Positions 6,877 through 64,000 of a DNA stretch of 64,000 nt are shown one piece after another. Location: contig OZ004589.1 of NCBI GenBank assembly GCA_963924555.1, positions 5,952,001 through 6,016,000 of the forward strand. The letters are read 5' to 3'. A program made the position numbers and the translations under genes. This DNA is from Crambe crambe. Taxonomy: Eukaryota; Porifera; Demospongiae; Poecilosclerida; Crambeidae. Positions within the stretch are counted from its first letter, which is position 1; each line of letters opens with the position of its first letter. The notes under the pieces were generated by a model. It ran no database searches, was not told the origin of the DNA, and saw only the letters and a list, made by a program, of their open reading frames with translations.

Positions 6877-9800
6877 ATGGCTGAAACAACGGAGTTCTTG
6901 ACTCTGTTAAATTGTACAGGGAAACTAGAGATAGCACTGCAATCAGACAGAGAACTCGCACAGTTTCTCAATAAAGAAGGTTTCATCACTGATGAGGTCT
7001 ATGCAGACGTCAGCAGTACAACATCAGTGCAGACATCAATTCAAAAGGCTGGTACACTTATATCTCACATAAAAAATAAAGTCAACCTCAACCCCAAGAG
7101 GTACCACAAACTTGTGTGTCATCTCCGTCAAAACAAAAGGAAGTATGAGGATATTGTGAACATTCTTGAAGAGGAGTATTACAGACTCGTGCGTGATAGT
7201 AGCCAAGATGATCATACAGATGTGTCTCAAATGGATGCAGTTGATGTTCCAAGCTATCAAAAACAAGGAGGTATGTGTGTGCTGTATGACACTGTATATG
7301 ATACTAACTTTATTTCTGTGTAGATTCTGATTCCCGTCTCATAAGATTAATCAACCAAGTCGATGACACTCCATTGGGTACGTAAGGACATTACTTTTAG
7401 TGTGCCCATAACTATGCAGGTAGTAGTCTCTATAATTTATGGTGTGTGCTACTGAAAGAGCTCCCTCTGTGTCCCCCTTATATCAACCACATAACCCCCC
7501 ACCAAAAAAAAAAGTCTCAAACAAATATCATGTCATCATCATTGCCTATGATTAGCACATAGCTGCTAAAGCATTCATGGTAAACAATGCTCCTCTGTGT
7601 CTCTAATTAAGCTAATGCATGGCTTGTTGAACAATAATAGAACCAATAATCCTAATGCCTAAAATCTTCTAGATGAAGATGATTTGCCTGAACTAAGAAA
7701 AGCCTTAGTGGATGTGTCATCCAGATGGAAAGATTTTGGAATATCCTTTGGATTGAAATCGAGCAAATTGAAAGAAATTGGAGCAGATGGTGGCAAGAGA
7801 CCACTGGAGTATTTCTGTGAGGTGCTGACAGAGTTACTCACAAGGAACTATAATGTTGAGAAGTTTGGAGAACTGACTTGGAGGAAGGTAGTGGAGGTGG
7901 TGGCTGATCCTACAGCTGGTGATAACACAGCTCTAGCTGAAGTCATAGCCAAGGAACATACAAGTAAGATTATAATAATTTATTATGCAGGAAAATTTAG
8001 CTTACTTCTTTAAATTTGTATTGTAGAAAAAGTATCTTTTATGCTGAATGCTGCTCACTCAGGTAACATGCATGCAATGGGATAATGAATAAAAATCTTG
8101 CTAGCTAGCATAATTTCAAAAGCTCTGTATGCCATGGTTACCTAATTTTGCACTCCCCTCTGCATATTGGCTTCATTAGTGACTAACATTATGCAGCCCC
8201 CAGGGGAAGTGAGCTAATTAATATGAATTTTATTACAACAATAATTATTGCATATTCACTTCCCCTTTTAGCATGTTCACTTATGGAGTCAAGGGCAACA
8301 AAATTAAAAGCACATCTCAATACGTTTAAAGAAGTAGACAAAGCTGAGATGAATTCAGCAGTAAAAGATCTCATAAAAGAACAAATTGAAGAGTTTATTA
8401 CTACTTGCTTGAAGATCAGCTGTAATCCAGATGACGTGCGTGACATTTTAACCAATATTCATCACACTGATTTCCTCATTAGTAACGAAACATTGAAGTG
8501 GGCGATGGAGAGGGTTGATAGCATTGCTGTACAATCTATTGCTAAGAGTGATGGAGACTGCTCTAATCAGCCAAGCACCAAAGAAGATAAAAAATTATTC
8601 TGTGATGATGTTATTTACCATGCTACTTTATGTAGTCATGCAGCAAGTACCTGTGATGAAAATGATTTCAAAAAATTCTTCAATGAAGATCACCAACATC
8701 ACAACTTGGATGAAGCTTCTTTATCTATCACTCGTAAACGAGAGGAAGTGGACAGATACCTCATAGCAAGAAAAGGAAAGATCTACTTTATAGCTTTCAA
8801 GAGTGAATCTCTATTATCAGATTGGCAAGAAAAATTTACCTCATTTGCAGAAGGTATTTAATATGACTCAAATGAGTTATATTATTACAGCTATACTTAT
8901 TTTGTAGGGATTCAGCTGCAGACTGATCGCATACCTTTAAGGTTCTTGATACAGCAGTTACACGATGGATTCCAAATTGTACTCACAGGTATTGCTAGTT
9001 ACGTTCCTCTGTTATCTATGATTCATCTGGATTTCTTTTAATTACAGGATTTTCATATGGAGGTCTCTTGGCCTTATCAGTCACTGCTTCATTGTGGCAG
9101 CAGCCAAACCTACTGAGTTCAGATTTGCTGCAAAGAAATGTCTGTTGCGTTGCATTTGGCCTTCCACTGTTCAATCTTCCCCACATACAAGAAGCCATTG
9201 ATGAGTCCCCTGAATTAGCATCCACGATTCATTCTTTCTATGTCAAAAATGACATATTTCCTCAGCTTAATATTTTCTTTGACCCTGTATGTGAAAGTAT
9301 ACTTGATGATCTGGGAGACTTCAATGACATGGGAGATTTTGATCCAAAACTAGTAGGTTATCATAATATTATTATTGCATTATTTTAATATTATAATTTC
9401 TATTTCAGAAGTTTCAAGGATTAACTACTTCTTGTATTATTAATAATTTGAGTGCATTGCAGAAAGTACATCAGGTTAGTTATTCTTGCATGTAGAAGAA
9501 ATAATGCCAAGAATTAATAATTTCTATAGAATAAAATTGCTAAGGATTCAATCTGTGCTGTAAAATCGCGGCTTCAAGCAAAACTACCTCATCTGCTAGC
9601 CAGTGGACTGATTCAAAAGCAGTCACACCCCTATAACACATACCTGATAGACTCTGAATCAGGTCTTGCATTACATCCATTGACAAAGGAAGAAGCTATG
9701 GTTGAATTGAAGAATCTTACTCAACCTTTAATCGATGCTATGGATGATAGATTATTTCACAGGGTAAGGACATATTTTGATCTATGGCATATCATCATGT

Positions 9801-12800
9801 GATTATTATCTTTAGCATTCCATGTCGAATTACACCTGTAAGATTTGCAAAATCTTAAAATTTGAGTGTGAAATAACTCCTGAATCACTCACTGATTTAG
9901 AAGTTGCTGAACCCAACATTGAATCAGTATCATTTCATCGTCATGGTAAAGAAATTGCTGTGACTATAAAAGGGAGAAATTTGTGGTTTTGCTATCAAGT
10001 GAAAGTTGGTAAACACACAGAAAAAATTAAGGCAGAAAATGTCAGCAAGCAATCAATACAATTTAATTATGATCCAGAGTTGAATCGAAAAATATCATCA
10101 GACAGTGCCGAGATAAATGTATCAATGTGGACACACTTCTATGAACAAACTAGAAAAAAGGTGAAAACTGATCACAAGGTGTGTGTAAGTAATTTAGTAA
10201 TTACATGCATGTTCAGTCTATTCTGGCAACTATTAATAATTCTAAACATATCATATAATGCTCTTCATTTGATGCAGGTATATTATATAGCTAATTTTTT
10301 TGTTTTTAGTTGTTTTTTCTTCTTTTCTAGGTATATGAATTCACATTTCGTCAAGAGCAACTAGCTAAACTCAATCCTTCAGAGTTGATTGAAACAGCAT
10401 GTATGAGTGCCTTACTTGAACAGCATCCACACTCACAATGTGAAGAAGTCAAATATTTCTCAAAACGATTTGAAACATTGAGAAAATTTTTAGAGCAAGC
10501 TGTGTCAGTAGTTCCAGTGGAAAGCATTTTATTTGCTATAGCACATACCAATGATGCTGACATCTCCCGTCAATGCTGTACTCACCTAATGAAATCATCC
10601 ATCATACTTCCACCATCATTGTTAGCATGTGATGGATACAGAGTTGCTATTAATGCCATTGCAAGTCACTCATTGGAGAGGAAATTAGACTTTATTGATG
10701 AAGAGGCTGAAGTGAAAGATGCTATTGGTGAAAAAGAATTAAGAAAACAATTTAAAAATTATAAAAAAAGGGGAAATCTTAACCCAATGGAACAAAATGT
10801 AAATCGAAAAGCTTTCAATAAGCACCTTCATAGACACTACTTTTTAAAGTATTCTATGGATTATGATGAAAAGCTCTTACAACAGAAGATTCAAAACCTT
10901 GGAGTTGAACCTGGGGAAAACTGTGATTTACTTGTATTTCTTGAACAATCATATTACTATATGCTGTACAATCACATCAGTACATCTGCACTGGATGCTA
11001 TCAGTTCTGTTAATCTATCATCTGTTTACATGATCCAGTCTGAATCTGATGCAGCCATGTGTTTGAAACCTCCTCTTAATATTCTAGTGGAAGGAAGAAA
11101 AAAACTCTCATGGTTAGCGAAGCAAACTTTACAAGGACCAATGCCCGAAACGTCCTCTGATTCTCCCATAAGGTTATCACAACTGTATAATTCAAAAATG
11201 CTACAAATTGTGAATGGTTTTCGATCAAAAGAAGTGAGAGTAAGCTGTCTACTTCTTGCAGCATTCATGGAAGAACAGGTTAAAGTTCCCTTGATGAAGA
11301 CATCCTTTGACACAGCTAAAGCTTTGAATGTTGCCTTGTCAGCAGCAGCAGTAGGTGTTTGGGCAATCTTCAGCCTTGCATTAGGTGATCTTCAGGCTGT
11401 CATTAAATCAATTCCATCACGTTCACTCTTAGTACAAGTCACTGACTATATCAAAGGAGTTTTCAAGAATGATGAAAAAATAGCTGACCCTAATTATGCA
11501 GGTAAATTGCAGTTTATGGTTCAAGGGATGGAAGAAACAGTAAGCTGCAACAGCCACTACGTCAGCTACTCACTTGAACGTCAGCTGATTGAACTCTGCA
11601 AGAAACAGAACATTGATGAGTCAACTCCTCTTGACACTCTTGTTGGAGACTGGGATCGAATCTTTAAAGATGATATTTTAAGCATGGTCATGCAAACTCA
11701 TCGCTCACTCATTGCTCGCTGGTTAAAGTGGGCTCTGATGGTACACCACCTCCGTGAAGAACTGGCTCACTACACAGCTGTGGGGGTTGTAGGGCTGGTC
11801 AACTCTGGCAAGTCACTACTTGTCAGTACATTATTTGACATTGATGTGAGTGTAAAGACACAGTCTTTGCATATCACTAATTCATCTCACTCTTACTGTA
11901 GGTTCCAGTGGGTACAACAGCCATGAAACGTACTACAGTGCCTTTCCTGTACAATTTAGATGGTATGATTGATGGTTTGGATGTGATTGACTTCCCTGGA
12001 GTGGATGACAGAGATGAAACCATCCCTGACTTGGCAGAACTTCTCCTATCCATTGCACAAGTTGTCATTTTTGTTGTGGACTACAGGTATGAAAGCTATC
12101 AAGCTTAGTTCACTGTTCCTGTATATAAATTATACTGCAGGAAAGCCCACACTGAGTCATCCAAGAAGTGGCTGGAAATGCTGGAAGACAAAGCAATTCC
12201 TGTCCTGGTGTGTCTGACTTATGCTGATAAGCTTTATGCTGAACACATGGGGAAGGACGGGTCTCACCCTGATCCAAGAGATATATCACGAGAAATCACT
12301 AAGGAAACAGAAGTAAGCAAATGCCTTCATGCCACTAAGTGTGTGTACAGTAAGGGGTAAAAGAGTCTGGCTAATATTAAGGCCTTCACTCCCTCTTCAT
12401 TATCATATTCTCAATTATTTAAATTATGTACCTTTCTCTTCATTATCTATGTAAACTGTAAAGACATGTATAAAAACAACCCATTTTTAGGTTATCTGAG
12501 TTGCAAATTGCAACTCAGATAACCTAAAAATGGGTTATTTTTATACATTTCTTTACAGTGTACTTTTTGATCCTTGTTACAATTACCTAGATGATAATTG
12601 AGCAACTTGATCAAGTCCCTTCTCACAAAGTCCAGTTCTTCTCCTTCAGCCAAGACCGAGATTCAGTCCTGAACAACCCAGAGGGGAGGGAGAAACTGCA
12701 GAAGGCTGGTATTGGCACCCCCCAAGATGTGGGGGACTGGCTGGCAGGGATCTTTGAAAGTCAACTAGACCAAGATGAATTGGCCAAGAAGATACAAACA

Positions 12801-12818
12801 TTTGTCCACAGAAACTAA
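6877..12818 (+). CDS. G1: CARD-Death-lipase-GTPase protein, copy 1 (intact, 1501 aa)
   Basis: Fourteen exons: 6877-7270, 7324-7377, 7673-7963, 8027-8062, 8272-8853, 8908-8988, 9048-9352, 9409-9474, 9530-9763, 9816-10178, 10331-11845, 11902-12086, 12141-12312, 12591-12818; total 4506 nt, no frame break. Residues 5-105 are a CARD-like death fold and about 151-246 a Death domain (WKDFGISFGL, TWRKVVEVVAD). About 355-690 is a class-3 lipase: IYFIAFKSESLLSDW matches the usual oxyanion-strand motif, Ser482 lies in TGFSYGG, Asp548 in KNDIFP, and His682 in HSMSNY, a complete candidate triad. About 695-800 is an IPT/Ig-like beta domain. 803-1230 is mainly helical with a hydrophobic stretch (LSAAAVGVWAIFSLALG). 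1285-1501 is a P-loop GTPase: GLVNSGKS 1290-1297, DFPG 1337-1340, TYAD 1395-1398. The start was chosen by homology to G5. AATAAA at 12870-12875 is the likely polyadenylation signal. Function unknown; an innate immune or cell-death role is inferred from the domains. Confidence 0.9.
12454..12560. mobile_element. Palindromic MITE in the last intron of G1, TA target duplication
   Basis: A 107-bp near-perfect inverted repeat centred on GAGTTGCAAATTGCAACTC, with ends A(C)ACTGTAAAG and CTTTACAGTG, flanked by TA on both sides. The same intron of G4 at 40211-40230 has the uninterrupted sequence CTATGTACTTTTTG, an empty site. TA duplication fits a Tc1/mariner-type MITE. Related copies lie at 29177 and 23376. 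Confidence 0.9.
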
Positions 12819-14545: not shown

Positions 14546-14762
14546 CAATGTTGAATGGATGGAGGACTAGTCTCAGTCATTGTTGATCCACTCAAACTCG
14601 ATTTGCTCCCGAGGGTCAGTGATTGGAGGACTGCTTTAGAAGAAAGATCACTCTCTTCTTGTCTTGGGACCTGGATCTCGGGCCAAGGCTCCTCTTTAAC
14701 TTAAAATAAAATACTCCCAGCCATACCGTGAATGTCCATCCAAAGACCGATCAAGACGCTTT

Positions 14763-15482
14763 ATGGTAGGAAATCTACCATTTGATATTGATGCAGCAAG
14801 TGATCATGACATACACAAAAATCAGTTTTGGACAATTTATCCCTCGAATAAAGTTATTTGCTCAGCTAAAGCATTTGTACTTACACACATCTTGTTTATT
14901 GCTGAACTTGGAAAGCCAAAAAATAGTTCTATTCTATCTAACCCAAACACCAAAGTTATCCTAAATTTATATGAATATAATCTTGAGACTAAAATGTACT
15001 ATTCCTCTGGAAGATCCGCACTCCTTCATGCATCAAGTACATTACACATTAATGTAACGAAGCACATCATAAGAACACCTGATGGAATTACTCTTAGCCA
15101 TAAAGATATTCCTGAGTTATCAGGATATGAGCCATTTCATTTGGAATTAGATCTCACTGAAAGAATTCCTTCATCTTCAACACCAATCAGCGATCCAAGC
15201 AACAGATCTGAAGCAACTGAAAATGATATCTACATAGTAGAAAAAATTGAAAAGAAACGGTACAATTCCAAAAAGGTGCAGTATGAGTATTTCATAAAGT
15301 GGTTAGGTTATTCTTCAAAAGAAAATACTTGGGAACTACCCTCAAATATTCCAGCTGATATGTTGGATCAATATGAAAGGTCTATTCTAGATCCACATTC
15401 AACTGAACCTAGAAGAGCTGGATTGAGAGATCGCAGTACAATAAAAAGTACAAGCAAACCAGATTTTATATTAAATATGTGA
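14763..15482 (+). CDS. Chromodomain protein of the TIR transposon (239 aa)
   Basis: Open frame of 239 codons. Residues about 157-210 are a chromodomain: IYIVEKIEKKRYNSKKVQYE then YFIKWLGYSSKENTWELPSN, with the aromatic cage positions Tyr/Trp/Tyr present. The N-terminal 150 residues (for example FWTIYPSNKVICSAKAFVLT) match nothing I recognise. The tail is basic and Ser-rich. Chromodomains at the C-terminus of integrases or transposases target insertion to chromatin marks, so this may be the last exon of a longer transposase; upstream exons are not recognisable. Confidence 0.7.
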   Translation: MVGNLPFDIDAASDHDIHKNQFWTIYPSNKVICSAKAFVLTHILFIAELGKPKNSSILSNPNTKVILNLYEYNLETKMYYSSGRSALLHASSTLHINVTKHIIRTPDGITLSHKDIPELSGYEPFHLELDLTERIPSSSTPISDPSNRSEATENDIYIVEKIEKKRYNSKKVQYEYFIKWLGYSSKENTWELPSNIPADMLDQYERSILDPHSTEPRRAGLRDRSTIKSTSKPDFILNM

Positions 15483-15568
15483 AAATATAATAGCTAATCA
15501 CGAGTTAGTTTTTTTCTTTCTGTGTCTTCATACCATTTTAAATATAGCTGTAAAATATGAATAAAATT

Positions 15569-16073: not shown

Positions 16074-16298
16074 CTTCTTAATAATTGCGCATGCGTACTA
16101 CTACTGTAATTTAACCACAAAGCTTATTACGTCATTCTATAGGTAAGTAGCGGTCAAGAAAAGGTACTAGGTACGGTCAACAGGTCAAGGAAAATTTCTG
16201 TGCGCGGTCAAGAGGTCAACATAGATTTTTGGGTGGTCAAAAACCTTGACCCCGGTCGCGAACGTATGTACAGAGTGAATAGGAGTGACCTCCCCCTG

Positions 16299-16845: not shown

Positions 16846-19800
16846 ATGGCTGAAATAAAGGAGTACTTGACTCTGTTATATTGTACAGGGAAACTAGAGA
16901 TAGCACTGGATTCAGACAGAGAACCTGTGATGAGAAAAAAATTTTCAATGAAGATCACCAACATCATAACTTGGATGAAGCTTCACTCGTAAACGAGAGG
17001 AAGTGGACAGGTACCTCATAGCAAGAAAAGGAAAGATCTACTTTATGGCTTTCAAAAGTGAATCTCTACTATCAGATTGGCAAGAAAAATTTACTTCATT
17101 TGCAGAAGGTAGTTAATATGACTCATACAGGTTATAGCTAGCTATTGTTATTTTCATAGGAATTCAGGTGCAGACTGATCGCATACCTTTAAGGTTTTTG
17201 ATACAGCAGTTACATGATGGATTCCAAATTGTACTCACAGGTATTGCTAGTTACGTTCCTCTGTTTCCATGATTCATCTGGATTCCTTTATTTTATAGGT
17301 TTTTCATATGGAGGTCTCTTGGCCTTATCTGTCACTGCTTCATTGTGGAGACTGCCAAATTTATTGAGCTCAGAATTACTACAAAGAAATGTTTGTTGCA
17401 TAGCATTCGGTCTGCCACTGTTAAATCTGCCCCACATACAAGAAGCCATTGATGAGTCCCCTGAATTAACATCCACGGTTCATTCTTTCTATGTCAAAAG
17501 TGACATGTTTCCTCAGCTTAACGTTTTCTTTGACCCTGTGTGTGAAAGTGTACTTGATGATCTGGGAGACTTCAATGCTGACATGGGAGATTTCGATCCA
17601 AAACTAGTAGGTTATCATTATTATTACATATTATTATTATTATGTAATAGCATGGTTAGTTGTGGTATTTGGGATTGATAGCATGAGAAATGCAGGGGTA
17701 ATAGCACGAGGCGAAGCAGAGTACTATTTACTGTATTACAATTGCTAAACACCACAGCTATCACATGCAATAGTATACTGTTCATAATAGCCAAAGTAGT
17801 AGCTCTCAGCTGGTCAAAGAATGACTGTATTTCTGGGCAGAAGAAGGAATAAGGCCATGGCATAGCTAACTAGTAACTAGAACTTGGTTGGTTGTTGTTT
17901 CTTTGTAGCTAGCTAAGGCTAATTAGCACATGCACATTTATGGCACTCTCTATAGTTATTAATATAACTATTTCTATATTTCAGAAGTTTCAAGGATTAA
18001 CTACTTCTTGTATTGTTCATAATTTGAGTGCATTACAGAAAGTACATCAGGTTAGTTATTCTTGCGTGTAGAAGGAAAATATACAACCTTGAAATGCCCA
18101 GAATTAATTATTCCTATATATAGGATGCATTTTCTAAGGATCCACTCTGTGCTGTAAAATCTCAACTTCAAGCAAAACTGCCTCCTTTACTAGCCAGTGG
18201 ACTGATTCAAAAGCAATCACAACCCTATAACACATACCTGATAGACTCTCAATCAGGTCTTACATTACATCCATTAACAAAGGAAGAAGCCATGGTAGAA
18301 ATGAAGAACCTGACTCAACCTTTAATTGATGCTATGGATGATAGACTATTTCATAGGGTAAGGGCGTATTTTGATCTATCAGTCGTGTGATTTTATCCTT
18401 AGCATTCCATGTTGAATTACTCCTGTAAGATTTGCAAAATCTTGAAATTTGTGTGTAAAAGTACTGCCGGATCACTCACTGATTTAGAAGTTGCTGAACC
18501 CACCATTGAATCAGTATCGTTTTATCGTCATGGCAAAGAAATTGCTGTGACTATAAAAGGCAGAAATTTGTGGTTTTGCTATCAAGTGAAAGTTGATAAA
18601 CACAGAGAAAAAATCAAGGCACAAAATGTCAGCAAGCAATCGATACAATTTAATTATGATCCAGAGTTGAATCGAAAAGTATCATCAGACAGTACCGAGA
18701 TAAATGTATCAATGTGGACACATTTCTATGAGCAAACAAGAAAAAAGGTTAAAACTGACCACAAGGTAGGTGTAGTGTAGTATGAATTGCAAATTCAGTA
18801 ATTACATGTTCAGTATAATCTGGCAACTATTTATAATCCTATGCAATGCCATGTGTTTTTTTCTTCATTGTATCCCCTGAGCATCAGGCCAAAATGTCGA
18901 AATTTTTAAGCTAGATTAAGTTTTACATAATTATCATAATAATGCTCTTTATCTGATGCAGGTATAATAACTTTGTTTATTTGTTTTTTGTTGTTGTTGT
19001 TAGTTTTTTTTTTTCTTTTCTAGGTCTATGACTTCACATTTCGTCAGGAACAACTAGCTAAACTTAATCCTTCAGAATTGATAGAAACAGCATGTATGAG
19101 TGCCTTACTTGAACAGCATCCACATTCACAATGTAAAGAAGTCAAATATTTCTCAAAACAATGAGGAAGTTTTTAGAGCAAGCTGTGTCAGCAGTTCCAG
19201 CGGAAAGTATTTTATTTGCTATAGCACGTGCCAATGATGTTAACATTTCCCTTCAATGCTGTACTCATGCACCTAAAGAAATCATCCATCATTCTTCCAC
19301 CATCATTGTTAGCATCTGATGGATACAGAGCTGCTAGTAATACTATTGCAATTCATGCATTGGAGAGAGAACTGAAGTTTGTTGATGAAGGGGCTCTAAT
19401 GCAACATACTATTGGTGAAAAAGAATTAAGAAAACAATTTAAAGAATATAAAAGAAGGGGAAGTCTTAACCCAATGGAACAAAAAGTGAATCGAAAAGCT
19501 TTCAATAAGCACCTTTATAGACACTACTTTGTAAATAGTTATGATGAAAAGTTCGTACAATAGAGCTTGGAGTTGAACCAGGAGAGTGTGATTTACTTGT
19601 ACTTCTTGAACAATCATATCGACATCATATCTACAATCACATCAGTATGTCTGCACTGGATGCTATCAGTTCTGTTAATCTATCATCTGTTTACATGATC
19701 CAATCTGAATCTGATGCAGCCATATGTTTGAAACCTCCTCTTAATATTCTAGTGGAAGGAAGAAAAAGATTATCATGGTTATCAAAGCAAACCTTACTAG

Positions 19801-34813: not shown

Positions 34814-34851
<38 letters not shown>

Positions 34852-49100: not shown

Positions 49101-49101
49101 A
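43153..49101 (+). CDS. G5: CARD-Death-lipase-GTPase protein (1503 aa, intact)
   Basis: Exons: 43153-43555, 43611-43658, 43920-44210, 44272-44301, 44719-45294, 45354-45434, 45493-45800, 45857-45922, 45983-46216, 46275-46637, 46764-48287, 48344-48528, 48617-48788, 48871-49101; 4512 nt, no break. Domain order as in G1: CARD-like fold (YLTLINCTGKLETALQSDRE), Death domain, lipase with Ser in TGFSYGG, Asp in KNDIFP and His in HSMSNY, IPT/Ig-like domain, helical region, GTPase (GLVNSGKS, DFPG, TYAD). The last exon ends RKFVHRKK, two residues different from the other copies. It lies head to head with the PPWD1 pseudogene, with 147 bp between that remnant and the start codon. With G1 it is the best candidate for a functional full-length member. 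Confidence 0.9.
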
Positions 49102-49242: not shown

Positions 49243-51158
49243 ATGGCAGGATTGACTGAAGAAGAGAGCGTTCCTTTACAACAACTGCTAAAAGTAAGCT
49301 ATGAAGTAAAAAGCTAATCTTGCACGCCATAGACCCTTAGGATATGAGGGAGAAACAGTATAGCCATCTAGCTAATATTCGTGTACCATTTCCTCCAGGC
49401 TCAATCCAAAGCAATCGTGATCAACATCTGTAGAGAGAGTTTCAACAACAGACATGAAAAAGGTACTAGCCTAGCCAAGGTCCTACTGATATTTATGGCC
49501 ATGTGGAGCGGGGTGTTGACTACAGTAAACTATTGACTCTGTTAATTCCTTTTTCTACTGTATGTGTACATGGTAACCATATGTAATTTTGTTAACCTGT
49601 AGTGCCTGATATGATACTGGCCTCTGCTGCCAAAGCTCTGGATATCCAGCCATCAGAAGCAACCAGTGTAAGATTAGCTTAGCTTAGAGACTGGGACATT
49701 GCTCATAATGTGCATTTATATTCCTTCATTGAATAGCTCTTTTCTTCGCTTTCTACACTCATCAAACTGATACTCTTCGAAGGACTCTCCGATGCTCAGA
49801 GCATTGCCGAGCTCTTTCCAGGTAGGGCACAGATAAAGCTAGAAAATCCTGCCAATTCTCAAGCATGAGAAACAAACTGATTCTCCAAAATTAATAACAT
49901 ACAGTCTAATCCACCATGTCCCAATAGCACTAATTCCAACTATTTTCAACCTCCCCACCTACATATCAAGGCCACTTGTTCCCTGGCCCATAATGTGGTT
50001 ACGCTGTAAAGAATGCCCTTTGAGGTTCAGTTTCACACTCTCTCATGACTGAAACAGCTACTTCTGTGTCCCTATTAGATTGAAGTTAGGTAGTAATGAG
50101 GTGATGCTTGCTGTTAGCATAGTGTAAACTTGTAGCCTACACTTGTGAACCTAACATACATACACTGTGTGCTGATGTGTGGATGTACACTCAATTCTTG
50201 CTCTTGTCACTGGCTACGTACATGCATACGTACATGCATCCTGTCCTGTCTTCATGGGTGGCATCACAATATTACATCTCTATGTGTACATATCTAGATG
50301 ATTTCCACAAGAATCTTAAAAGTCTGTTATCTGAAACCATTGCAAGCAACCTGTAAGTAACTCTAATAAGAGAGCACCTAGCTATATAATCAGAGGAAGG
50401 ATAATACTGCCATCAAATATGTACTGTTATAGTACTAGGTGGGTACTGTCCATGTTATGTGATAGTACTAGGCAGGTACTGTGCTCTATGAGTCTCCATG
50501 TTATAGTACTAGGTGGGTACTGTCCTCTATGAGTCTCCATGTTATAGTACTGGGTGGGTACTATCCTCTATGAGTCTCCATGTTATAGTACTGGGTGGGT
50601 ACTATCCTCTATGAGTCTCCATGTTACAGTACTAGGTGGGAGCATCAACTGATGGGTTGCTTGTTTTAGCAGGGGACCCCTTGTTATAGATAGATCAGGA
50701 AAGTGTTAATTGAAGGGTGCAAATGTTCAAGTTTTTTTTTTCCCCCTTCTCTCTCTTTCTCAGACCTGAATGGAAAGAAAAAGTGCTGAAGGATCAAGGT
50801 GACTGCGTGCTAGCTAAAAATGATAATTCAGACTCCATTATAAAGGAATACTGATACTCTCTCCCCAAAATTAACCTGGATTCAGAGGGGGAGGAATTTG
50901 GCATGAACTTTTAAAGTGCCCATCTTATGTACATGTGCGTATTTGCAGTGTCCCTCCCTCATCTGGTGGACTTTGATTGGAGAGTTGACCTAAAAACATC
51001 GTCAGACACTGCAGCCCGCATGGCCTACCCTACTTGCATTGTTCAAATGAAAGTGAGTTTGTTGTTGGTTGGTTGCCATGTTCTTTTAGATGATAATTAA
51101 GCAGCTTGGTCAAGTCCCTTCTCACAAAGTCCAGTTCTTCTCCTTCAGTCAAGACTGA
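49243..51158 (+). CDS. COMMD9: COMMD9, 3'-truncated; may splice into a relic of the array's last exon
   Basis: COMMD9 is a subunit of the Commander complex (CCC), which works with Retriever in endosomal recycling. Exons 49243-49293, 49399-49462, 49603-49667, 49737-49821, 50298-50352, 50764-50798, 50949-51052 join in frame to 153 codons. MAGLTEEESVPLQQLLK, ELFP then DDFHKNLKSLL, and VSLPHLVDFDWRVDLKTSSD with YPTCIVQMK follow human COMMD9 closely. The human protein continues for about 45 residues that complete the COMM domain; no such exon is visible before G6. Instead, 37 bp after the last donor an acceptor (TTCTTTTAG, ending 51089) leads in the same phase (0) into a relic of array exon 14, which adds 22 codons to a TGA at 51156. 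The product would be 175 residues with a replaced C-terminus. Whether this is expressed, or the gene is dead, is not decidable here. A short diverged tandem repeat (AGTACTAGGTGGGTACTGT) lies in the intron at about 50430-50640. Confidence 0.85.
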
Positions 51159-51297
51159 GATTTAGTCCTGAATGGCCCAGAGGGGAGGGAGAAATGCAGC
51201 ATTGGCACCCCCCAAGATGGCTGGCGGGGGATTTTTGAAAGTCAACTAGACCAAGATGAATTGGCCAAGAAAATACGAACCTTTGTACACAGAAACT
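51090..51297 (+). pseudogene. Relic of exon 14 of the array gene
   Basis: Matches the last exon of G1-G7 (MIIKQLGQVPSHKVQFFSFS), but has CAAGACTGA where the others have CAAGACCGA, giving a stop, and lost bases in the segment for EKLQKAGIGTPQDVGDW. It marks an eighth copy of which only the end survives, or a stray duplication endpoint. It ends at the normal stop position (AGAAACTAG). Confidence 0.88.
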
Positions 51298-51507: not shown

Positions 51508-54500
51508 ATGGCTTCGATTGCAGGTGAGACCGTAGATATACAACTTGACTCATTCAGTATACGTTTTCCTTTCAGATATCGCCGCCGTTACAAAGCTGAC
51601 TCCAGCCAGTAAAATAGATGACTCACCTCTTGGTACATTGTGTAGTTCTTACCGTGACCCTAGCTATATACAAACAGTGTCTGAGAGTCAGTCATCCCTT
51701 GTTGAAATGATGACCATAGGGAGCCTGGCATAGTTAACCCCAAGGCTTGTTTTGATCTCATGAGCAGTCCTTGTACTCAGTGCAATTAAGGACATGTCAC
51801 ACTGCACTTTGTACCATGTTACATGCAGGTTTGTGAGGCTCTACTACAGTGTTAAAGCATTGTTTAAGCTAGTTCTCATATATATGTTGTATGTATGTAC
51901 ATTCACTTTCAATATATACAGCTAACCACAGGAATGCAAACATTGTAGAGGGTGGATTGATCTGTAAACAACCGCACCCTAAACATATAAATCTAAAGTT
52001 CCAACATTGTTGCACTAGCTCTATGAAGCTAACAGTTGAAAGGCAGAATCCTGGTATTATACTTGAAATTTACACCGGAGGGATAGTGAATAGCTTGAAC
52101 AGAGAAGGCAGGAGCCGCAGAAAACCTCGAACTAGGGTGCTTGACGGTACACAACTCTGCGAGTAACGTCAGTATGGCTCATTATTTCGAGAATCCCTCC
52201 GACAGAATTGCTTTTGGTCTATTTATCTACACTTGCTGAATGACGTTGTTTTGGGAGTAGTCTTGCTAGCCAGACTCCTTTTCCCCTCACTATCTTTGCA
52301 CATACACTTACTTGCACGCGCTTCTGGGAAGTGGGGAGTGAAAGGACATTAGTTAGCAATCATGTATCACTTATTATTGGGTGATTCAGTAGTCTATCAC
52401 TACCTTTTATGTATGATCATCATCTTGTTCCTTGAAAGAATTCAGGGTTTCATCTAGGAATTTTACCTTGGGGGGGAAGCTCACTGATCGTGTGGCCGTA
52501 GGCCATGGGAGAGGGGTAGGTTGCAGGAGAGGGATGTGCCCCTCCCGTGTGAAGCCAAAAAGGCTTACCTACCCCAAATTTCTCCCTTTGGTGGCTACAG
52601 GCACCATTTGAAGGGAGTAGCCTATATAAAAATTTTTATCTTGGGGGCGGGAGCTTCCCCTGCATCCCGCCCCCTTAGCTGTATTATAATCCTACTAACA
52701 TCACTGAGTCCATATATAGAGCTTTTTCATTGTCATAATTATCAGACACATGTTGATCCCTGCCCCTGTGCCCACCCCTGATATAGCAAGCGGTGTGCAA
52801 CTAGCTCTTGTCACACAAGGTGTATAGCTTCTTGTCCCAAGGACATTAGTAACTATAAATGTAGCTGCAGCTGACATATTGAAGAATCATTATTTCTGCT
52901 AGCTGAATTCATTGTATACTGTAACTGCCTATTCACTTGTACACCAGGACAATGTATTCTAAAAGCCAGCAAAGAATCACGAGGGGAGGTTCAATTAAAA
53001 TTTATGATGAGCTGTAGAGATAACTGATAGTTTACAGAGCAGTTAGTGGTCAATTGATTTAGAAGGGTTTAGCCAGTATGACTATCCCATAATGGGCTCT
53101 TTTGACACACACTGATAATTCCATCTTATAGTGACTGCTTTGGGAGGATATAATATTCATTCTTGTATAGTTGCAGTAAATAGCATGAACTTACTAGTGC
53201 ATACAGTACATGAGCAATACATGCATCTTGTGATCATTCCCCCATCATAGTAAACATGCAGGCAGTGGAACAACAATATACTATGCCCTCTCGTTCCAAT
53301 AAGCCCTTGGTGAAAATATTATTACATGTACAAGACTGGGAGGGCATAAAATTATGGGGAAAGATTGGCAGTATCGGCCCAACTGCATCAGTTCTTGTAG
53401 ACTCTCACAACGTAAATCACTCCTCTATTAGCCAACCATTGTTTAAGTGTACATGTGCATGCAAGCATCACATAGCGTCGCATGCATGCATCCAGGCAAT
53501 TCATGCTTCCATCACCAATCCTTTATCTATGCATGAACATACCCTAATGTAAGTGAACTCTGTAGCTAGCTAGCTCCCCTAAAGTTGCTAGGTAACTAAT
53601 GTGAAAAATGCAGACTGCAGAATAGTAATTATGCTAACCACATGCATGTACATGCAGTTATTAATTGGCCCTCCTCTTTATGCAATACAGGCTCATATTG
53701 CACACCTATTGACCAATCAGATTGCAGTATGAGTAGTCATATAATGTTTGACGTTACATGCAGATGATGATGATCTTCATGATTTGATGAAAGCCCTGAC
53801 TGACATTTCAACCAAATGGAAACACATTGGAATTGCTCTTCGACTGAAACCAGCAAAACTTCAAGAGATAGCTGCAACACACCTTGGGAACCCTTCCAAC
53901 TGCATCCTTGAAGTGCTCATAAACTGGCTAAACAAGAATTACAACACCGAGAAGTTTGGGGAACCTACGTGGAGGAGGATAGTGGAGGTGGTAGCTGATC
54001 CAGCTGCTGGTGATAACGCTGCTCTAGCGGAACGGATTGCCAAAGATCACAGGATAAAAGGGTTGCAAGGTATTTAGCTGTTTTGCTATACATAATTCTA
54101 ATACTTGCACACCAGTTCCCAATGGTTCCTCAAACTCCTCTTTCAGAATTAACTTCAGCTATAAAGTAATTAGTTTCATGCAGTCTATCTGTAATAGGAG
54201 GGAATTAAGATGTTACTATCATTCTTCTTTTTATGATTATAGCACATTCATTTCTGGAGTCAGCAGCAACAAAATTGAAAGCACATCTCAGTACATTCAA
54301 AGAAGTGGACAAAGCCGAGATAAATCCAGCAGTGAAAACTTTGATAAATGAGCAAATTAAAGATTTTATTGCTACTTGCTTGAAGACCGGCTGTAGTCCA
54401 GATGATGTGCATGACACTTTGACCAATATTCATCACACTGATTTCCTTGTTAGTAATGAAACGTTGAAGTGGGCCATGGAGAGGGTTGACAGCATTGCCG

Positions 54501-57500
54501 TACAATCTACTTCTAATAGTAATGGAGACTGCCCTGATCAGTCAAACACCAAAGAAGATAAAAAATTATTCTGCAATGATGTCATTTACCATGCTACTTT
54601 ATGTAGTCATGCAGCAAGTACCTGTGATGAAAATTATTTCAAGAAATTTTTCAATGAAGATCACCAACATCACACCTTGGATGAAGCTTCTTTATCTATC
54701 ACTCGTAAACGAGAGGAAGTGGACAGATACCTCATAGCAAGAAAAGGAAAGATCTACTTCATAGCTTTCAAGAGTGAATCTCTATTATCAGATTGGCAAG
54801 AAAAATTTACTTCATTTGCTGAAGGTAACTTATATGAGTTATAGAAGAGGCATATTTAGCTCTTTTCATTATTATTTTTTCAGGGATTCAGGTGCAGACT
54901 GATCGCATACCTTTAAGGTTTTGATACAGCAGTTACATGATGGATTCCAAATTGTACTCACAGGTATTGCTAGTTACATTCCTCTGTTATCTATATTATT
55001 CATCTGGATTCCTTGTTTACAGGATTTTCATATGGAGGTCTCTTGGCCTTATCTGTCACTGCTTCATTGTGGAGACTGCCAAATTTATTGAGATCTGATT
55101 TACTACAAAGAAATGTCTGTTGCATAGCATTCGGCCTGCCACTGTTAAATCTTCCCCACATACAAGAAGCCATTGATGAGTCCCCTGAATTAACATCCAC
55201 GATTCATTCTTTCTATGTCAAAAATGACATATTTCCTCAGCTTAATATTATCTTTGACCCTGTATGTGAAAGTATACTTGATGATCTGGGAGACTTCAAT
55301 GCTGACATGGGAGATTTTGATCCAAAATTGGTAGGTTGTAGCTAATACTATTGAAATTCTAGCTAATATTAAAAGTTTCTTATCACAGACTTTTCAAGGA
55401 TTAACTACTTCTCGTATTATTCATAATTTGAGTGCATTGCAGAAAGTACATCAGGTTAGTTATTCTTGCATGTAGAAGAAATACACAACCTCAAAATGCC
55501 TTGAATAAATAATTTCTATAGGATACTGTTGCTAAGCCTATAATACATACCTGATAGACTCTGAATCAGGTCTTACATTACATCCATTGACAAAGGAAGA
55601 AGCTATGGTTCAATTGAAGACTCTGACTCAACCTTTAATTGATGCTATGGATGATAGACTATTTCACAAAGTAAGGACATAATTTGATCCATCGTCGTGT
55701 GTTTTTAGTTATTTTATGTTATCTTTAGCATTCCATGTCAAATTACTCCTGTAAGATTTGCAAAATCTTAAAATTTGAGTGTGGAATAACTGCTGGATCA
55801 CTCATTGATTTAGAAGTTGCTGAACCCAGCATCGAATCAGTATTGTTTCATCGTCATGGTAAAGAAATTGCTGTGACTATAAAAGGGAGAAATTTGTGGT
55901 TTTGCTATCAAGTGAAAGTTGATAAACACACAGAGAAAATCAAGGCACAAAATGTCAGCAAGCAATCGATACAATTTAATTATGATCCAGAGTTGAATCG
56001 AAAAATATCATCAGACAGTGCTGAGATAAATGTATCAATGTGGACACATTTCTATGAGCAAACTCGAAGAAAGATTAAAACTGACCACAAGGTAGGTTTA
56101 ATGTAGCAAAAAAATTGCATGTCTCGCAACTATTTCCTAAATAAGAAAATAATGCTCTTTATCTATAGGTTGTTATTGTTTTTTGTTTATTTTTGTTTTT
56201 GTTTTTTTTTGGTTGTTTCTTTCTTTTCTAGGTATATGAATTCACATTTCGTCAGGAACAACTAGCTAAACTCAATCCTTCAGAATTGATAGAAACAGCA
56301 TGTATGAGTGCCTTACTTGAACAGCATCCACACTCACAACGTAAAGAAGTCAAATACTTCTCAAAACGATTTGAAACTTTGAGGAACTTTTTAGAGCAAG
56401 CTGTGACAGTAGTTCCAGTGGAAAGCATTTTATTTGCTATAGCACGTGCCAATGATGTTAACATTTCCCTTCAATGCTGTACTCACCTAAAGAAATCATC
56501 CATCATTCTTCCACCATCATTGTTAGCATCTGATGGATACAGAGCTGCTAGTAATACTATTGCAATTCACGCATTGGAGAGAGAACTGAAGTTTGTTGAT
56601 GAAGAGGCTCTAATGCAACATACTATTGGTGAAAAAGAGTTAAGAAAACAATTTAAAGAATATAAAAGAAGGGGAAGTCTTAACCCAATGGAACAAAAAG
56701 TGAATCGAAAAGCTTTCAATAAGCACCTTTATAGACACTACTTTATAAATGGTTATGATGAAAAGTCCGCACAACAGAGCTTTCAAAAGCTTGGAGTTGA
56801 ACCAGGGGAGTGTGATTTACTTGTATTTCTTGAACAATCATATCGACATCATATCTACAATCACATCAGTATGTCTGCACTGGATGCTATCAGTTCTGTT
56901 AATCTATCATCTGTTTACATGATCCAATCTGAATCTGATGCAGCCATATGTTTGAAACCTCCTCTTAATATTCTAGTGGAAGGAAGAAAAAGATTATCAT
57001 GGTTATCAAAGCAAACCTTACTAGGACCAATGCCCGAAACATCCTCTGATTCTCCCATAAGGTTATCACAACTATATAATTCAAAAATGCTACAAATTGT
57101 GAATGATTTTCGATCAAAAGAAGTGAGAGTAAGCTGTCTACTCCTTGGAGCATTCATGGAAGAACAGGTTAAAGTTCCCTTGATGAAGACATCCTTTGAC
57201 ACAGCTAAAGCTTTGAATGTTGCTCTGACAGCAGCAGCAGTTGGTGTTTGGGCAATCTTCAGCCTCGCATTAGGTGATCTTCAGGCTGTTATCGATTCAA
57301 TTCCATCACGTTCACTCTTAGTGGAAGTCACTGACTACATCAAAGGAATGTTCAAAAGTGCTGGTAAAATAGCTGACCCTAATTATGCAGGCAAACTTCA
57401 GTTTATGGTTCAAGGGATGAAAGAAACAGTAAGCTGCAACAGCCACTATGTCAGCTACTCACTTGAACGTCAGCTGCTTGAACTCTGCAAGAAACTGAAC

Positions 57501-58582
57501 ATTGATGAGTCAACTCCTCTCGACACTCTTGTTGGAGACTGGGATCGAATCTTTAAAGACGATATCTTAAGCATGGTCATGCTCACTCATCGTTCACTGA
57601 TTGCTCGCTGGTTGAAATGGGCTCTGATGGTACACCACCTCCGTGAAGAACTGGCTCACTACACAGCTGTGGGGGTTGTAGGGCTGGTCAACTCTGGCAA
57701 GTCACTACTTGTTAGTACATTATTTGACATTGATGTGAGTATAATGATGAAGTCTTTGCATAGCACTAATTCATCTGACTCTTACTGTAGGTTCCAGTGG
57801 GTACAACAGCCATCAAACGTACTACAGTGCCTTTCCTGTACAATCTAGATGGTATGATTAATGGTCTGGATGTGATCGATTTCCCTGGAGTGGATGACCG
57901 AGATGAAACCATCCCTGATTTGGCTGAACTTCTCTTATCTATCGCACAAGTTGTCATTTTTGTTGTGGACTACAGGTAGTTTAATAGCTTCTAGCTAGCT
58001 ATTATGCTTGGTGAGCTCACTGTGAATAATTATGTAGGAAAGCCCACACTGAGTCATCTAAGAAGTGGCTGGAAATGCTGGAAGACAAAGCAGTTCCTGT
58101 CCTGGTGTGTCTGACTTATGCTGATAAGCTTTATGCTGAACACATGGGGAAGGACGGGTCTCACCCTGATCCAAGAGAGATATCACGAGAAATCACAAAG
58201 GAAACAGAAGTAAGAAAAATACTTTTGAGGGTGAGGTGTGGGGCACAATATTTGATCACTCTCTAATTCTAAACGACCTTTGGCATTCAACATGTACACT
58301 TTTCTTTATTATGATTTACAGTATGTACTTTTCTATTTCCTATTCTTTCTGTAGATGATAATTGAGCAACTTGGTCAAGTCCCCTCTCACAAAGTCCAGT
58401 TCTTCTCCTTCAGTCAAGACCGAGACTCAGTCCTGAACAGCCCAGAGGGGAGGGAGAAACTGCAGAAGGCTGGCATTGGCACCCCCCAAGATGTGGGGGA
58501 CTGGCTGGCAAGGATATTCGAAAGTCAACTAGACCAAGATGAATTGGCTGAGAAGATACGAACATTTGTCCACAGAAACTAA
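51508..58582 (+). pseudogene. G6: Death-lipase-GTPase copy with frame breaks in the lipase exons
   Basis: Exons: 51508-51523, 51576-51632, 53764-54069, 54243-54824, 54884-54963, 55023-55330, 55389-55454, 55522-55670, 55729-56091, 56232-57734, 57791-57975, 58038-58209, 58355-58582. The leader (MASIADIAAVTKLTPASKID) and Death exon match G4. The small exon 4 is absent; the Death exon is extended by GLQ instead. The exon at 54884 is 80 nt instead of 81: one T is missing from the TTTTT run near 54920, which brings TGA into frame. The exon at 55522 is 149 nt against 234 in other copies, an 85-nt loss that removes the segment before TYLIDS and also shifts the frame. Exons 10 to 14, including the whole GTPase, are intact. 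It could yield a truncated Death protein or be dead. The 2.1-kb intron 51633-53763 holds no gene I recognise. The 3' half is closest to G2. Confidence 0.85.
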
Positions 58583-59010: not shown

Positions 59011-62000
59011 ATGGCTACGAAACAGAACGTCGAATATGAGACTTTACTTAGCTGCACTTCTGAACTGACTTCGGAAATCTCTGCAGATCCTCTCTCTGTT
59101 TCTGAGAAATTAGTTGCTAAAGGACTAATCCCTCCATCACTACATAGCTCAGCCCAACTGCAAGCCAAAGGGAAAGAACTGAAGGCCAGTGAATTGGTAC
59201 AACAAGTCACTAACAAAGTCAAGATATTTCCGAGCAAGTTTGGAGTATTCACGAGCATTCTGGGTGAATTTTTATGGCTGAAAGATGTGTTGGAGCTGAT
59301 CAATGAGAGATATCAGCAGCTCAACTTGGTAGGCTGTAGTCTGTATAGCTAGCTGGTATATTTCCATGAGGGAGAGAGAGAATCAGTTTACTACCAATTA
59401 TTCTGAGGGTTTTGATTCTTTTGTCATGAAATGCCTGACAAAAGTGATGAGGAAGGTGGGGATAAGTTCAGTATGTTTATTTGACCTAAGGCCAGTGTTA
59501 ATGACATTCATGTTTCTGGTCAGGATTTTTCCTCACAATCATGCGGGTGGGCGGTAGTTATTATCCATTATACCATTATTATCAATGTCAAAAATGTCCA
59601 TTTTCTAGCCACAAAATCATCACAAGTACAAGCTGCAGCTACTCTGCAGAGTAGCTGTATAAATAATACAATAATGGCTTCTGGAGCGGTGCCAATTTTC
59701 CAATGCGGGCGGTTGACCAGAAACATGAATATCATTAACACTGGCCTAATGTATGGGGTGTGGTTCAAGAGATTATTCATAGCAAGCTAGCAACATCAAT
59801 AAATAATGTTATTTTAATTGCTTTGATTATAGAATTCAGACTCTCAGAGGTCACCACAGGAATCACTCAGCTCCACTAGAACTGGCAATGACATTAATGG
59901 CAGAGGGAATCAAGGTACTTACTTAGCCACTAATCCTATCCAAAAAGAGGGCAACCTCTCAAGAAACTGTCATCAATGTGTCCTGGTTTGTGTGACAATA
60001 ATTATCACTGTACATACTGTACACTGTACTGGATTTTGCAAGTTATTTGCAACATCCATTTAACTTACAGCGCATGCGCATTGAAGGCTGCAATGTAACA
60101 AATCAGTATGCTACTTAGGCATAGAATCTCACTCTATGACCCATCCGCAGCAGATAATCTTATGGCATCCTGCGAGCCATACCACACAAAAGCTTACAGT
60201 GAAGATATGAGGTGAAGGACTTGGTTACATTCAGAGTCAAGTAGCCAAAACCTTGGTGTGGACAAATCCACTGTATACCAGAGTTTCTAAGCATATTTCT
60301 TGCAACAGGCTCTGTAAGCAAAAAAAGGAGGAACTGCCATTTAGAAAAATAGCACCTCCTGCTCAGACTTTATTCTTGAACCTGGCATATACCTTAGAGA
60401 GAACTAGCTCATGATTACATGAATTGCAGCTTGAAGTTGACACTTCACCATTTGTAGATTTTTATATGAAAAAGTAATTTCCGCTCTCCAGAGAAATAAT
60501 TTTCTTCGGCAGAAATACATTCATGATGTTTCCCTCTATAGCATAGACCATAGCTATTTGGTCTATTTGATCTATTTGGTCTTTACCTGATTGACAGAAT
60601 GGGTCATTACAATGTGAGGGGTGGCTATAAGTATAGACCCCTTGCAGTAGGTGTGGCTTGGACATACGAAACCACTGTGCCATGTTGGAGGGTGCTATCA
60701 TCTACTATTATATATAGGCTTATTTTTCTCCCATGCAAACACAGGCTACGTAGCTTTGCTAAACTAATTCTGTAATGATATACACCTACCTTATTTTGCA
60801 GAATCTTCATTTCTGAATTCACAAATAGCTGAATTAAAATCCCAGCTCATTTCTTTCAAGAAAGTCAATAGTGACCAAGAAAAAGTGGAAACTTCACTTA
60901 ATATTCTCATCAGTACACAAATTGAACAGTTCATTACCACTTGCTTACGGACTGAATGTGATCCAGATGAGTTACGTAAAGCTTTAACTGACTTTCGTTG
61001 CAATGAAATTCTCATCAACGATGAAATTTTGAAATGGTCTATGGAGAAAATTGATTCCATCACTTCACTGAAATCGGAAATTTATCATCAGAGTAGCAAG
61101 GAAACTAAAAAGGTATTTTGTGATGATGCAATTTACCATGCTACTTTATGTTGCTATGCTGTAAGCACCTGTGATACAAAGAATTTTAAAGATTTCTTCA
61201 AAGGTTATCATCATAGTTTTGATGAAGCATCTTTATCAATTCCTCGTGATCAAGCAGTCGACAGATATCTCATAGCAAGAAAGGCAAAAACATACTTCAT
61301 TGCTTTTAAAGGTGAACTTCTACTATCAGATTGGCAAAAACAGTTCACATCATTTGCAGAAGGTATATATAACATAATAGTAAAGAAAAAGAACAAAAGT
61401 CAATTTTAGAAATCATTGTTTTTTGTTGTTTTTTTTCTTATGTTAGCAAATGAGTTCTAAACATTCTTCCCTCTTCTGTGTAGATGTAGTATTATGACCT
61501 TTGACCTGCCATCCCTACTTAGAGAGTGCTAATGCACTCTCGATTATAGCTATAATACATATCTGGCTAATTTTACATCTCTTGGTATATGAATGTAGCT
61601 AATAATTATTATTTTGCAGGAATTCAGCTGCAGACTGATCGCATACCTTTAAGGTTCTTAGTACAGCAGTTACATGATGGATTCCAAATTGTAGTCACAG
61701 GTATTGTTATTCCATAAAGACTCATTATGTCTAAGTTTACAGTACTCTCTATGTTACAGGATTTTCTTATGGAAGTCTCTTGGCCTTATCTGTCACTGCT
61801 TCATTGTGGAGACTACCAAATTTATTGAGATCTGATTTACTGAAAGAAAATTTTTGCTGTATAACATTCGGTCTGCCACTTATAAATCTCGCCAGCATTC
61901 AGGAAGCTATTGATGAGTCTCCTGAATTAGCAGCCACTATTCACTCATATTATGTCAAGAGTGATATATACCCTCGCCTTAATATTTTCCTCGACCCTGA

Positions 62001-64000
62001 GTATGAGAGTATATGCACTGATGTGCTTCTCAAACTTGGAGACTTTGATATTGACTTGGAAAACTTCACTACGGTATGTGCATTGAGTACTGTAGCTATC
62101 AGGTAATATCTATCATCCTGTACAGAATTTTCAGGGATTATCTGCTTCACTTCTTATTCATTACTTAAGTGTATTGCAAAGTTCTAAACAGGTTGGTTAA
62201 TCACATTGCTATATAATCAGCACAATTAGGATTTCTTTGTCTCTGAGGACACTAACATTCCTAATAAATATTTCACTTGATGTTATTATTCCAAATTAGG
62301 AGGGATTGTCTTTGTCCAAAGATGATACACTTGATGCTCTGAAAACTAAACTTCAAATGGTTTTGCCTCATCTGCTAGCTAGTGGACGGATAAAACAAGA
62401 ATTCCAACCCTTTAGCACATATCTGATTGATTCGGACCCCAAATCAGGTCTCATATTATGTCCACTAACGAAAGAACAAATTATAACTGAATTAAAGCAT
62501 CTGACGCAACCATTGATTGATGCTATCGATGACAAACTGTTTCACAAGGTTAGAATGTTCTGTCACATGTTACTGTAGCTACAAATAATTTTATTTGTTT
62601 CTACTTCTAGCATTCAATGTCTAACTATTCATGTAAATTGTTGAAGATTCTAAATTGTGATGATGATAAGAGTGCCAATAAGTCAATGGGTGATCTAATG
62701 TTAACTAAACCAAGCATCGGCTCAGTATCTTTTCATCGCCATGGCAAACAAATTGCTGTGACTATAAAAGGAAATAACATGTGGTTTTGTTATCAAGTGA
62801 AAGTTGGTAAACACTGGGAAAAAATTGAAGCAAGAGATGTCAGCCAGCGATCTATTCAATTCAACTATGATCCCGAATCAAATCCAGGATTATCATCAGA
62901 TGAAGTGAATATAAATGTATCTCTCTGTACACATTTCCATAATCCTGTAAGAGGAAAAGTGAAAATTGACCATAAGGTAATTAATAGGCTTACAACATAT
63001 TATGAAGCCCCTCACAGAACAATATGTAGGGTTATTCCACAATCACAGGGCTGTATACACTGCCATAGTCCAAGGGTGAGAGCAACGTGAACCATACAGC
63101 CTGAGTGGTTATAACATGCATAGTGATTGTGAAACAAGGGTGACCATGATGTGCTCTGATCTTAATCATAAAATTGTTGTAAATTGGTACTATACATTTT
63201 TCATTAGGTATACAAATTCACCTTTCGTCAGGAACAACTAGCTAAACTCAATCCTTCAGAATTGATAGAAGCAGCTTTTATGAGTGCCTTACTTGAACAG
63301 CATCCACATTCACAAAGTAAAGAAGTGAAGTGCTTCTCAAAGCGATTCGATACTCTACAAAAATTTTTAGAGCAAGCTGTATCTGTAGTTCCTATCGAAA
63401 GCCTTTTATTTGCTATAGTTCATTCCAATGATATTAGCATCTCCCATCAATGCTGCACCCACCTCATGAATCTACCCTTTACATTCCCACTCTCATTATT
63501 ATCATTGGATGGTTACCGTGCAGCTTCTGAATTCTTAGTCACAAGGTATCAAACAAAAGTTATTGATTTCAAGAGAGACTTAAGGAAGGATTATGAAGCA
63601 GCCATTGGCAAAAAGGTATTCAAAAAACTTGACAAGTTGTATGAAAAGGAAATAACCCCAGTGGAACGAGCAGGAGGTATTAAACAATTACTGGTACTTC
63701 CCTTTCCTTCTAACATTTCAGATGAACAACGACTTAGACAAATACTTCTCACTACATATGGAACTGCACCCTCTGATGATATCATGAAACAGTGCACATA
63801 TCTTGCTAGAACCTCTTCGATGATGTCCAAAGATCATAATACAAATCCAACTGTGCTGGATGCTATCAGTTCTCTTGATTTATCATTTGTTTATAACATT
63901 CAGTCTAAGCCAGACTCTGACACAGCATTTAGTTTAAAACCACCTTTGAATATATTAATTGAAGGCAGGAAAAAATTATCAGTATTGTCAAAACAAGCCT
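59011..64000 (+). CDS. G7: CARD-lipase-GTPase protein, partial at the right edge
   Basis: Exons: 59011-59328, 59833-59914, 60802-61362, 61620-61700, 61760-62073, 62135-62191, 62300-62548, 62611-62976, 63208 to beyond 64000; phases are consistent and I saw no stop. The CARD exon is almost identical to that of G3, and the linker again ends in phase 1 and can join straight to the lipase exon (SSFLNSQIAELKSQLISFKK), with no Death exon between. Lipase: YFIAFKGELLLSDW, TGFSYGS, KSDIYP, HSMSNY. The lipase and beta-domain exons are of the G4 type, sharing its unusual introns. The window ends within exon 11, before the GTPase. Compared with G4 it keeps a glutamine where G4 has its stop, and four extra residues (about 62011-62022) in exon 7. 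Confidence 0.85.
59490..59746. mobile_element. PIF/Harbinger-like MITE in intron 1 of G7
   Basis: 257 bp with inverted ends GGCCAGTGTTAATGA and continuing similarity through CATTCATGTTTCTGGTCA. TAA flanks both sides. The matching G3 intron reads TTTGACCTAATGTATGG (about 22996-23012) with no insert. The 3-bp TAA duplication and GGCC ends fit PIF/Harbinger. Confidence 0.85.
60120..60470 (+). mobile_element. Second IS630/Tc1-like transposase relic
   Basis: Matches 23530-23900 (for example ACCCATCCGCAGCAGATA, CACAAAAGCTTACAGTGAAG, TTTCTTGCAACAGGCTCTGT), with further deletions. Copied with the CARD exon block before G3 and G7 diverged. Confidence 0.7.

Follow-up and report, generated by a model that had tools for sequence, protein, structure and literature searches.

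What do the proteins do that are encoded by a tandem array of sponge genes in which death folds, a lipase, and a GTPase are joined? The array lies in Crambe crambe, in a 64,000-nucleotide stretch of contig C12 (5,952,001-6,016,000; genome size 143 Mb) that we refer to as the window, and comprises seven plus-strand copies there, G1 to G7. A preliminary description, made from the letters of the stretch, had pointed to an immune or recognition locus. Our answer, which we consider about an even call, is that the array encodes a cytosolic recognition-and-switch protein that serves either innate immunity or the control of self and non-self. Each intact gene would yield one intracellular protein of ~1,300-1,500 residues, composed of one or two death folds, a helical linker, an EDS1-like lipase, a beta sandwich, helices with a hypervariable core, and an Era/EngB-type GTPase, in this order.

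We built the model of G1 (6877-12818) manually, guided by open frames and splice signals. Its 13 exons have GT-AG internal borders and join into a single open frame that runs for 1489 residues to a stop; an optional 36-base exon (8027-8062) is likewise frame-preserving and would give 1501 amino acids (aa). Exon 1 (6877-7270) encodes a death fold for which CARD-like is a weak label, exon 2 (7324-7377) a linker, exon 3 (7673-7963) the Death domain, by profile match to FADD death domains, and exon 4 (8272-8853) a helical linker and the start of the EDS1-like lipase domain, with the fold read from the homologue P0001. Exons 5-8 (8908-8988, 9048-9352, 9409-9474, and 9530-9763) continue the lipase domain with the nucleophile elbow GFSYGG and the Asp of KNDIFPQ, and exon 9 (9816-10178) completes it with a candidate catalytic His (HRHSMSNY) before entering a predicted beta sandwich. 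The long exon 10 (10331-11845) carries a conserved helical part, the hypervariable helical segment, a second conserved helical part, and the P-loop GLVNSGKS; the remaining G domain (DFPGVDD, TYADK), the C-terminal helices, and the stop follow in exons 11-13 (11902-12086, 12141-12312, and 12591-12818).

Judged from these sequences, death folds, lipase, and GTPase form one chain, as the preliminary description had it. A search with the full protein returned ten homologues, including two from Halichondria panicea and three from Amphimedon queenslandica, and five of the ten have uninterrupted frames of 1307-1436 residues on contigs of 4.5-5.1 kb (possibly cDNA or intronless genes). Separate genes for the parts were rejected because every G1 junction preserves frame and phase and the homologous frames are unbroken on these contigs.

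The Death label is supported by sequence, with FADD as its nearest relative. The 11 best PDB matches of a profile built from six sequences, P0007 included, are all FADD death domains (E-values 4.6e-4 to 3.3e-3), and RIPK1 comes next at 0.11. PF00531 (Death) exceeds its cut-off in P0007 (28.4 bits vs 22.6) and, though below threshold, is the top match for the G4 exon of the window (17.9) and for P0001 (15.8); G1 exon 3 by itself had no Pfam match. CARD, named for exon 1 in the earlier description, is a weak label: its best score, in the homologue P0004, comes near the cut-off (22.6 bits vs 23.9), and a PDB profile search gave no CARD among the ten weak matches listed. Death-fold domains had also been ascribed to every copy; G1 and G5 have both exons, and in the window exon search neither G4 nor G6 showed a CARD-like exon.

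For the lipase domain, PF01764 (Lipase_3) falls just short of its cut-off in G1 (21.8 bits vs 22) and in P0004 (21.3 vs 22), exceeds it in seven of the ten homologues (P0001, P0002, P0003, P0005, P0006, P0008, and P0010), and was not found in P0007 or P0009 in the Pfam scan; NCBIfam gave no useful match among eight lipase segments. By profile, by single sequence, and by predicted fold, the nearest relative among those compared is EDS1, the hub of plant TIR-NLR immunity, and among solved structures EDS1, PAD4, and SAG101 stand closest. The structural match to EDS1 spans residues 238-573 of the predicted model, plant PLA1-type and fungal lipases score clearly lower than EDS1 in the same PDB structure list, and no PLA1 entry is among the sequence-search matches listed. 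The likeness to EDS1/PAD4, previously drawn as a general parallel, is stronger than had been claimed, since it holds in sequence profile and predicted fold. Shared with the plant proteins are the lipase domain, an elbow and Asp kept in many members, and helices after the lipase domain. In contrast, the plant proteins have an EP domain, and the sponge proteins have death folds before the lipase and a beta sandwich, variable helices, and a GTPase after it. PF18117 (EP) gave no match in G1 or in homologues P0001-P0011 in the Pfam scan, the corresponding region being beta sandwich, helices, and GTPase, and by this sequence criterion the sponge proteins are not members of the EDS1 family.

Does this likeness carry any immune history with it? 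It may reflect shared class-3 lipase ancestry only, with slow or parallel evolution from an ordinary lipase, and this is a serious possibility even if we lean away from it. Significant EDS1 sequence alignments are limited to ~75-135 residues around the elbow and the Asp, EDS1 offers a larger alignable domain than fungal lipases do, the database search was pre-filtered by word and length, and the hhalign control set a single sequence against an EDS1 profile of three sequences. The extent of the structural match and the lower standing of PLA1-type and fungal lipases, noted above, speak against common ancestry as the whole explanation. Tentatively, and with more doubt than confidence, the sponge and octocoral proteins could represent an EDS1-type immune node that animals possess or possessed early in their history, in which the lipase lineage of plant EDS1/PAD4 was wired to death folds, a GTPase, and array-borne hypervariable sensors. 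In such a node, binding of a small nucleotide signal, such as a product of TIR enzymes, may start death-fold assembly.

Behind the lipase domain, the IPT/Ig-like domain of the preliminary description has no support in sequence, as profile searches gave no IPT/TIG match; what is left is a predicted beta sandwich, with strands in the model at moderate confidence. The C-terminal P-loop GTPase was borne out, with PF01926 (MMR_HSR1) over its cut-off in G1 and in all ten homologues. Its profile is nearest to EngA/EngB/eIF5B/Era by sequence, in support of a GTPase of the Era/EngB group, and EngB and IRG tie by structure. The suggested parallel to IRG/GBP defence is not supported in that form, given this sequence profile and the structural tie; IRGs are not known to carry a lipase or death fold. 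A GBP or dynamin identity was set aside, with Dynamin_N below cut-off in G1 and homologues P0001-P0011 and GBP absent from the structural matches listed, an absence that excludes nothing. NACHT and NB-ARC were not found by hmmscan of G1 and P0001-P0011, which gave one nSTAND6 match (P0011, 11.9 bits vs a cut-off of 27.7); on their domain content, the proteins are not NLRs.

Exon-level tblastn placed the seven copies in order on the plus strand, in agreement with the earlier count; the G1 exon series, whole or partial, recurs six more times, and DNA identity between copies is ~73-97% (window self-comparison). Searching the whole genome with exon 10 gave 18 matches, a lower bound because the search scores best candidates only. 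These copies span ~5,941,585 to 6,050,564 on C12, so the array exceeds the window on both sides; a further family exon 10 lies on C12 at 5,671,111, two diverged members lie on C13, and a fragment lies on C17. Exon 10 is stop-free in 11 of the 12 C12 copies.

Within exon 10, the variable helical region of the preliminary description was narrowed to a hypervariable core, which is predicted to be helical. We compared 11 exon-10 copies chosen as open, a set without the G2 pseudogene, the diverged members on C13, and the fragment on C17, for nonsynonymous (pN) and synonymous (pS) differences per site. Alignment columns 91-240 have pN of 0.25-0.41, pN/pS of 0.56-0.85, and indels, and pN is 0.01-0.13 in the other thirteen alignment windows; the ratio is also high in columns 421-450 (0.83), an effect of the near absence of silent change in that stretch. 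Nonsynonymous exceeds synonymous divergence in 10 of 55 pairs within the variable segment and in none of the 55 outside it. Positive selection is not claimed, as average pN/pS does not exceed 1 in any alignment window. In 8 of the 20 closest pairs, the segment shows two or more times the silent divergence of its arms, for example in G1 and the copy at 5,671,111 (0.165 vs 0.041) and in G4-G7 (0.312 vs 0.068); the pair G6-G8 has an identical segment and 12 differences outside it. This pairwise pattern would fit old cassettes flanked by arms that gene conversion or recent exchange has kept similar. A separate tract of ~40 codons (GMEETVSCNS...DTLV; 11525-11644 in G1 and the same place in other copies) has pS of 0.00-0.07, compared with 0.17-0.38 on either side, across 11 copies; it may be a converted tract or a nucleotide-level signal within exon 10.

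Together these parts permit a mechanism. The hypervariable segment would bind a ligand or a guarded partner, and GTP binding or hydrolysis would alter the arrangement of the domains. The lipase domain would be a scaffold that dimerises or holds a ligand in the manner of EDS1, or, in proteins with an intact triad, it would hydrolyse conditionally; the freed death folds would nucleate caspase or adaptor assembly. Intracellular location, ligand sensing, GTP switching, dimerisation, and death-fold output are all features that we infer by analogy, and the same analogy suggests NLR logic, a nucleotide switch plus a death-fold output, built from other parts.

The variable segment also admits other readings. 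The proteins might serve allorecognition instead of microbe sensing, as a polymorphic intracellular self/non-self label in sponges (and octocorals) with death-fold output on mismatch. Their hosts are sessile, their genes form a tandem array in which similar arms flank a hypervariable segment, and there are mosaic pairs such as G6-G8; nevertheless we regard this as unlikely, since no membrane or extracellular part was identified, with no dedicated tool applied. We give similarly little credence to the segment being a neutral linker in tandem duplicates, in an array that has no recognition role. A pN/pS near 1 fits relaxed constraint, and of the seven copies in the window, two are disrupted, as is probably a third. 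A neutral linker is harder to reconcile with the near-complete lack of stops in exon 10, with the predicted helices, and with the raised silent divergence in 8 of the 20 closest pairs, which is as expected of old cassettes between converted arms.

Less likely still is a regulated lipid enzyme, in which the GTPase would control a lipase on internal membranes and the death folds would serve for clustering only. The Ser, the Asp, and the candidate His are all kept in window copies G1, G3, G4, G5, and G7, and catalysis would therefore be possible there; half of the homologues keep them too. Counted singly across the ten homologues, Ser is kept in seven, Asp in eight, and the candidate His, which was placed from the alignment and not from a solved structure, in seven. 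One or more of these residues are replaced in P0002, P0003, and all three Amphimedon proteins, and the Ser has become Thr, Glu, or Leu in three of the ten, which argues against this reading, as does the signalling of EDS1, PAD4, and SAG101, the closest relatives of solved structure, which is not known to need hydrolysis. The His of QSHPYNTY was dropped as a catalytic candidate, because Gln takes its place in G3 and G5 and the His of H-x4-Y is the better one. A microbial origin or anti-phage link was dismissed, as P0008 was unmatched in phages and plasmids and PADLOC gave weak matches, in the P-loop region only, for two of five proteins.

Several points weigh against the cytosolic recognition-and-switch protein that we prefer. 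Mean pN/pS of the variable segment is ~0.56-0.85, and relaxed constraint explains that segment as well as positive selection does. The predicted model of the P0001 N-terminus has a predicted local distance difference test (pLDDT) score of ~34-51 in the Death region, the window exon search turned up no Death exon for either G3 or G7, and PF00619 (CARD) was unmatched in three window exons (among six exons scanned). The G1 lipase by itself reaches an E-value of 0.026 against EDS1, and the full Ser-Asp-His triad is present in only five of the ten homologues (P0001, P0005, P0006, P0008, and P0010). Finally, the octocoral protein P0107 (707 aa) links a lipase to a G domain and lacks the beta module, the helices, and the P-loop; the full order in octocorals therefore rests on P0006 and P0008.

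Relatives with the lipase-to-GTPase order were found in another sponge, Halichondria panicea, and in octocorals; in those of Amphimedon queenslandica the lipase is degenerate or undetected. The C-terminal half retrieved 98 proteins, most of ~500 aa, which is the length of exon 10; that exon alone probably suffices to be predicted as a gene. Several of these matches share a contig size, for example four at 556,440, the window's own included, and equal contig sizes suggest arrays elsewhere. Nine N-terminal frames resemble the octocoral-type P0008 (P0113, P0123, P0124, P0138, P0145, P0153, P0154, P0155, and P0159); their shared contig size (536,277) hints that the family forms another large array, probably in an octocoral.

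The preliminary description knew of no protein that unites these parts. Neither the architecture nor an EDS1-like animal protein is described among the matches listed from the full-text literature searched (which does not extend to preprints and most subscription journals), and the claim stands to that extent; uncharacterised relatives do exist in Halichondria panicea and octocorals. Animal NLRs, including those of sponges, similarly combine an N-terminal death fold with a nucleotide-binding module, tandem expansion, and a variable part, but their module is a mid-protein STAND ATPase, whereas here it is a C-terminal GTPase of the Era/EngB group accompanied by a lipase domain, and NACHT was not found. 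In the hydrolase-type NLRs of liverworts and mosses, an alpha/beta hydrolase that has been likened to lipase-like proteins is joined to a nucleotide-switch receptor; these have a plant NLR ATPase and no death fold, and the likeness lies in the described domain make-up (PMC10952240). Amphimedon has lineage-specific Death/TRADD-N expansions and sponge-specific death-fold proteins with unusual domain sets (Kaur et al. 2021); these are centred on TRADD-N, and the word "lipase" is absent from its main text (PMC8195603). One relative only, P0011, resembles PIDD/UNC5-type ZU5-Death proteins: its GTPase is followed by a ZU5 match (against a cut-off of 21, 22.0 bits when the piece is scanned by itself and 17.4 within the full-length protein), whereas the G1 chain stops after its GTPase. 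Sponges with a death-fold protein that carries an EDS1-like lipase domain, and octocorals with a lipase-GTPase relative, would open two questions to testing: do the innate immune systems of plants and animals have a lineage of lipase scaffolds in common, and how did early animals achieve variable recognition inside the cell without ATPases of the NLR type? The array is a candidate sponge recognition locus with its variable cassette mapped.

The remaining copies, all on the plus strand, are unequal and include pseudogenes, as had been noted: G2 and G6 are disrupted, and the same is probably true of G4. In G2 (16846-22038), an exon 1 remnant is fused into exon 4, exon 10 has frameshifts, and exon 11 is split. 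The same fusion (16846-16923) recurs in the copy after G7 (66765-66842 of the window joined with L024), so the deletion itself was duplicated. G3 (22525-29539) is open from exon 4 to exon 13 (25073-29539, 1242 aa) with conserved splice sites, and a divergent CARD-like exon (22525-22857) is assigned to it by position. G4 (34971-40476), a probable pseudogene or truncated gene, has a Death exon (34971-35258), a stop codon early in exon 4, and AA in place of AG before exon 7; the rest is open. G5 (43153-49101) has a CARD-like exon, a Death exon (43922-44209), and exons 4-13 open to the stop (1244 aa) with conserved splice sites. An exon 13 relic with a stop follows (51090-51296). The G6 pseudogene (53787-58582) retains a Death exon and an open exon 10, and has a frameshift in exon 5 and no start of exon 8. 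In G7 (59017-64000), exons 4-9 are open, exon 10 is open past the end of the window, and exons 11-13 lie beyond it, in L024; a divergent CARD-like exon (59017-59349) is again assigned by position.

An exon-by-exon Lipase_3 scan of the genome listed five places, none of them in this array, whose split domain is below the detection level of such a scan; the place at C13:4821105, one of the five, adjoins the C13 family members. A non-family flank is duplicated upstream of G1 (5134-6598) and G5 (41466-42962), with ~80-93% identity in pieces, and marks a duplication unit. Between G1 and G2, an open frame (14700-15482) contains a chromodomain (PF00385, 2.8e-13) and resembles the end of a retrotransposon integrase. 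Ahead of G1, a 591-residue open frame (1941-3716) looks by eye like a multi-pass membrane protein and has a sub-threshold match to DUF6962.

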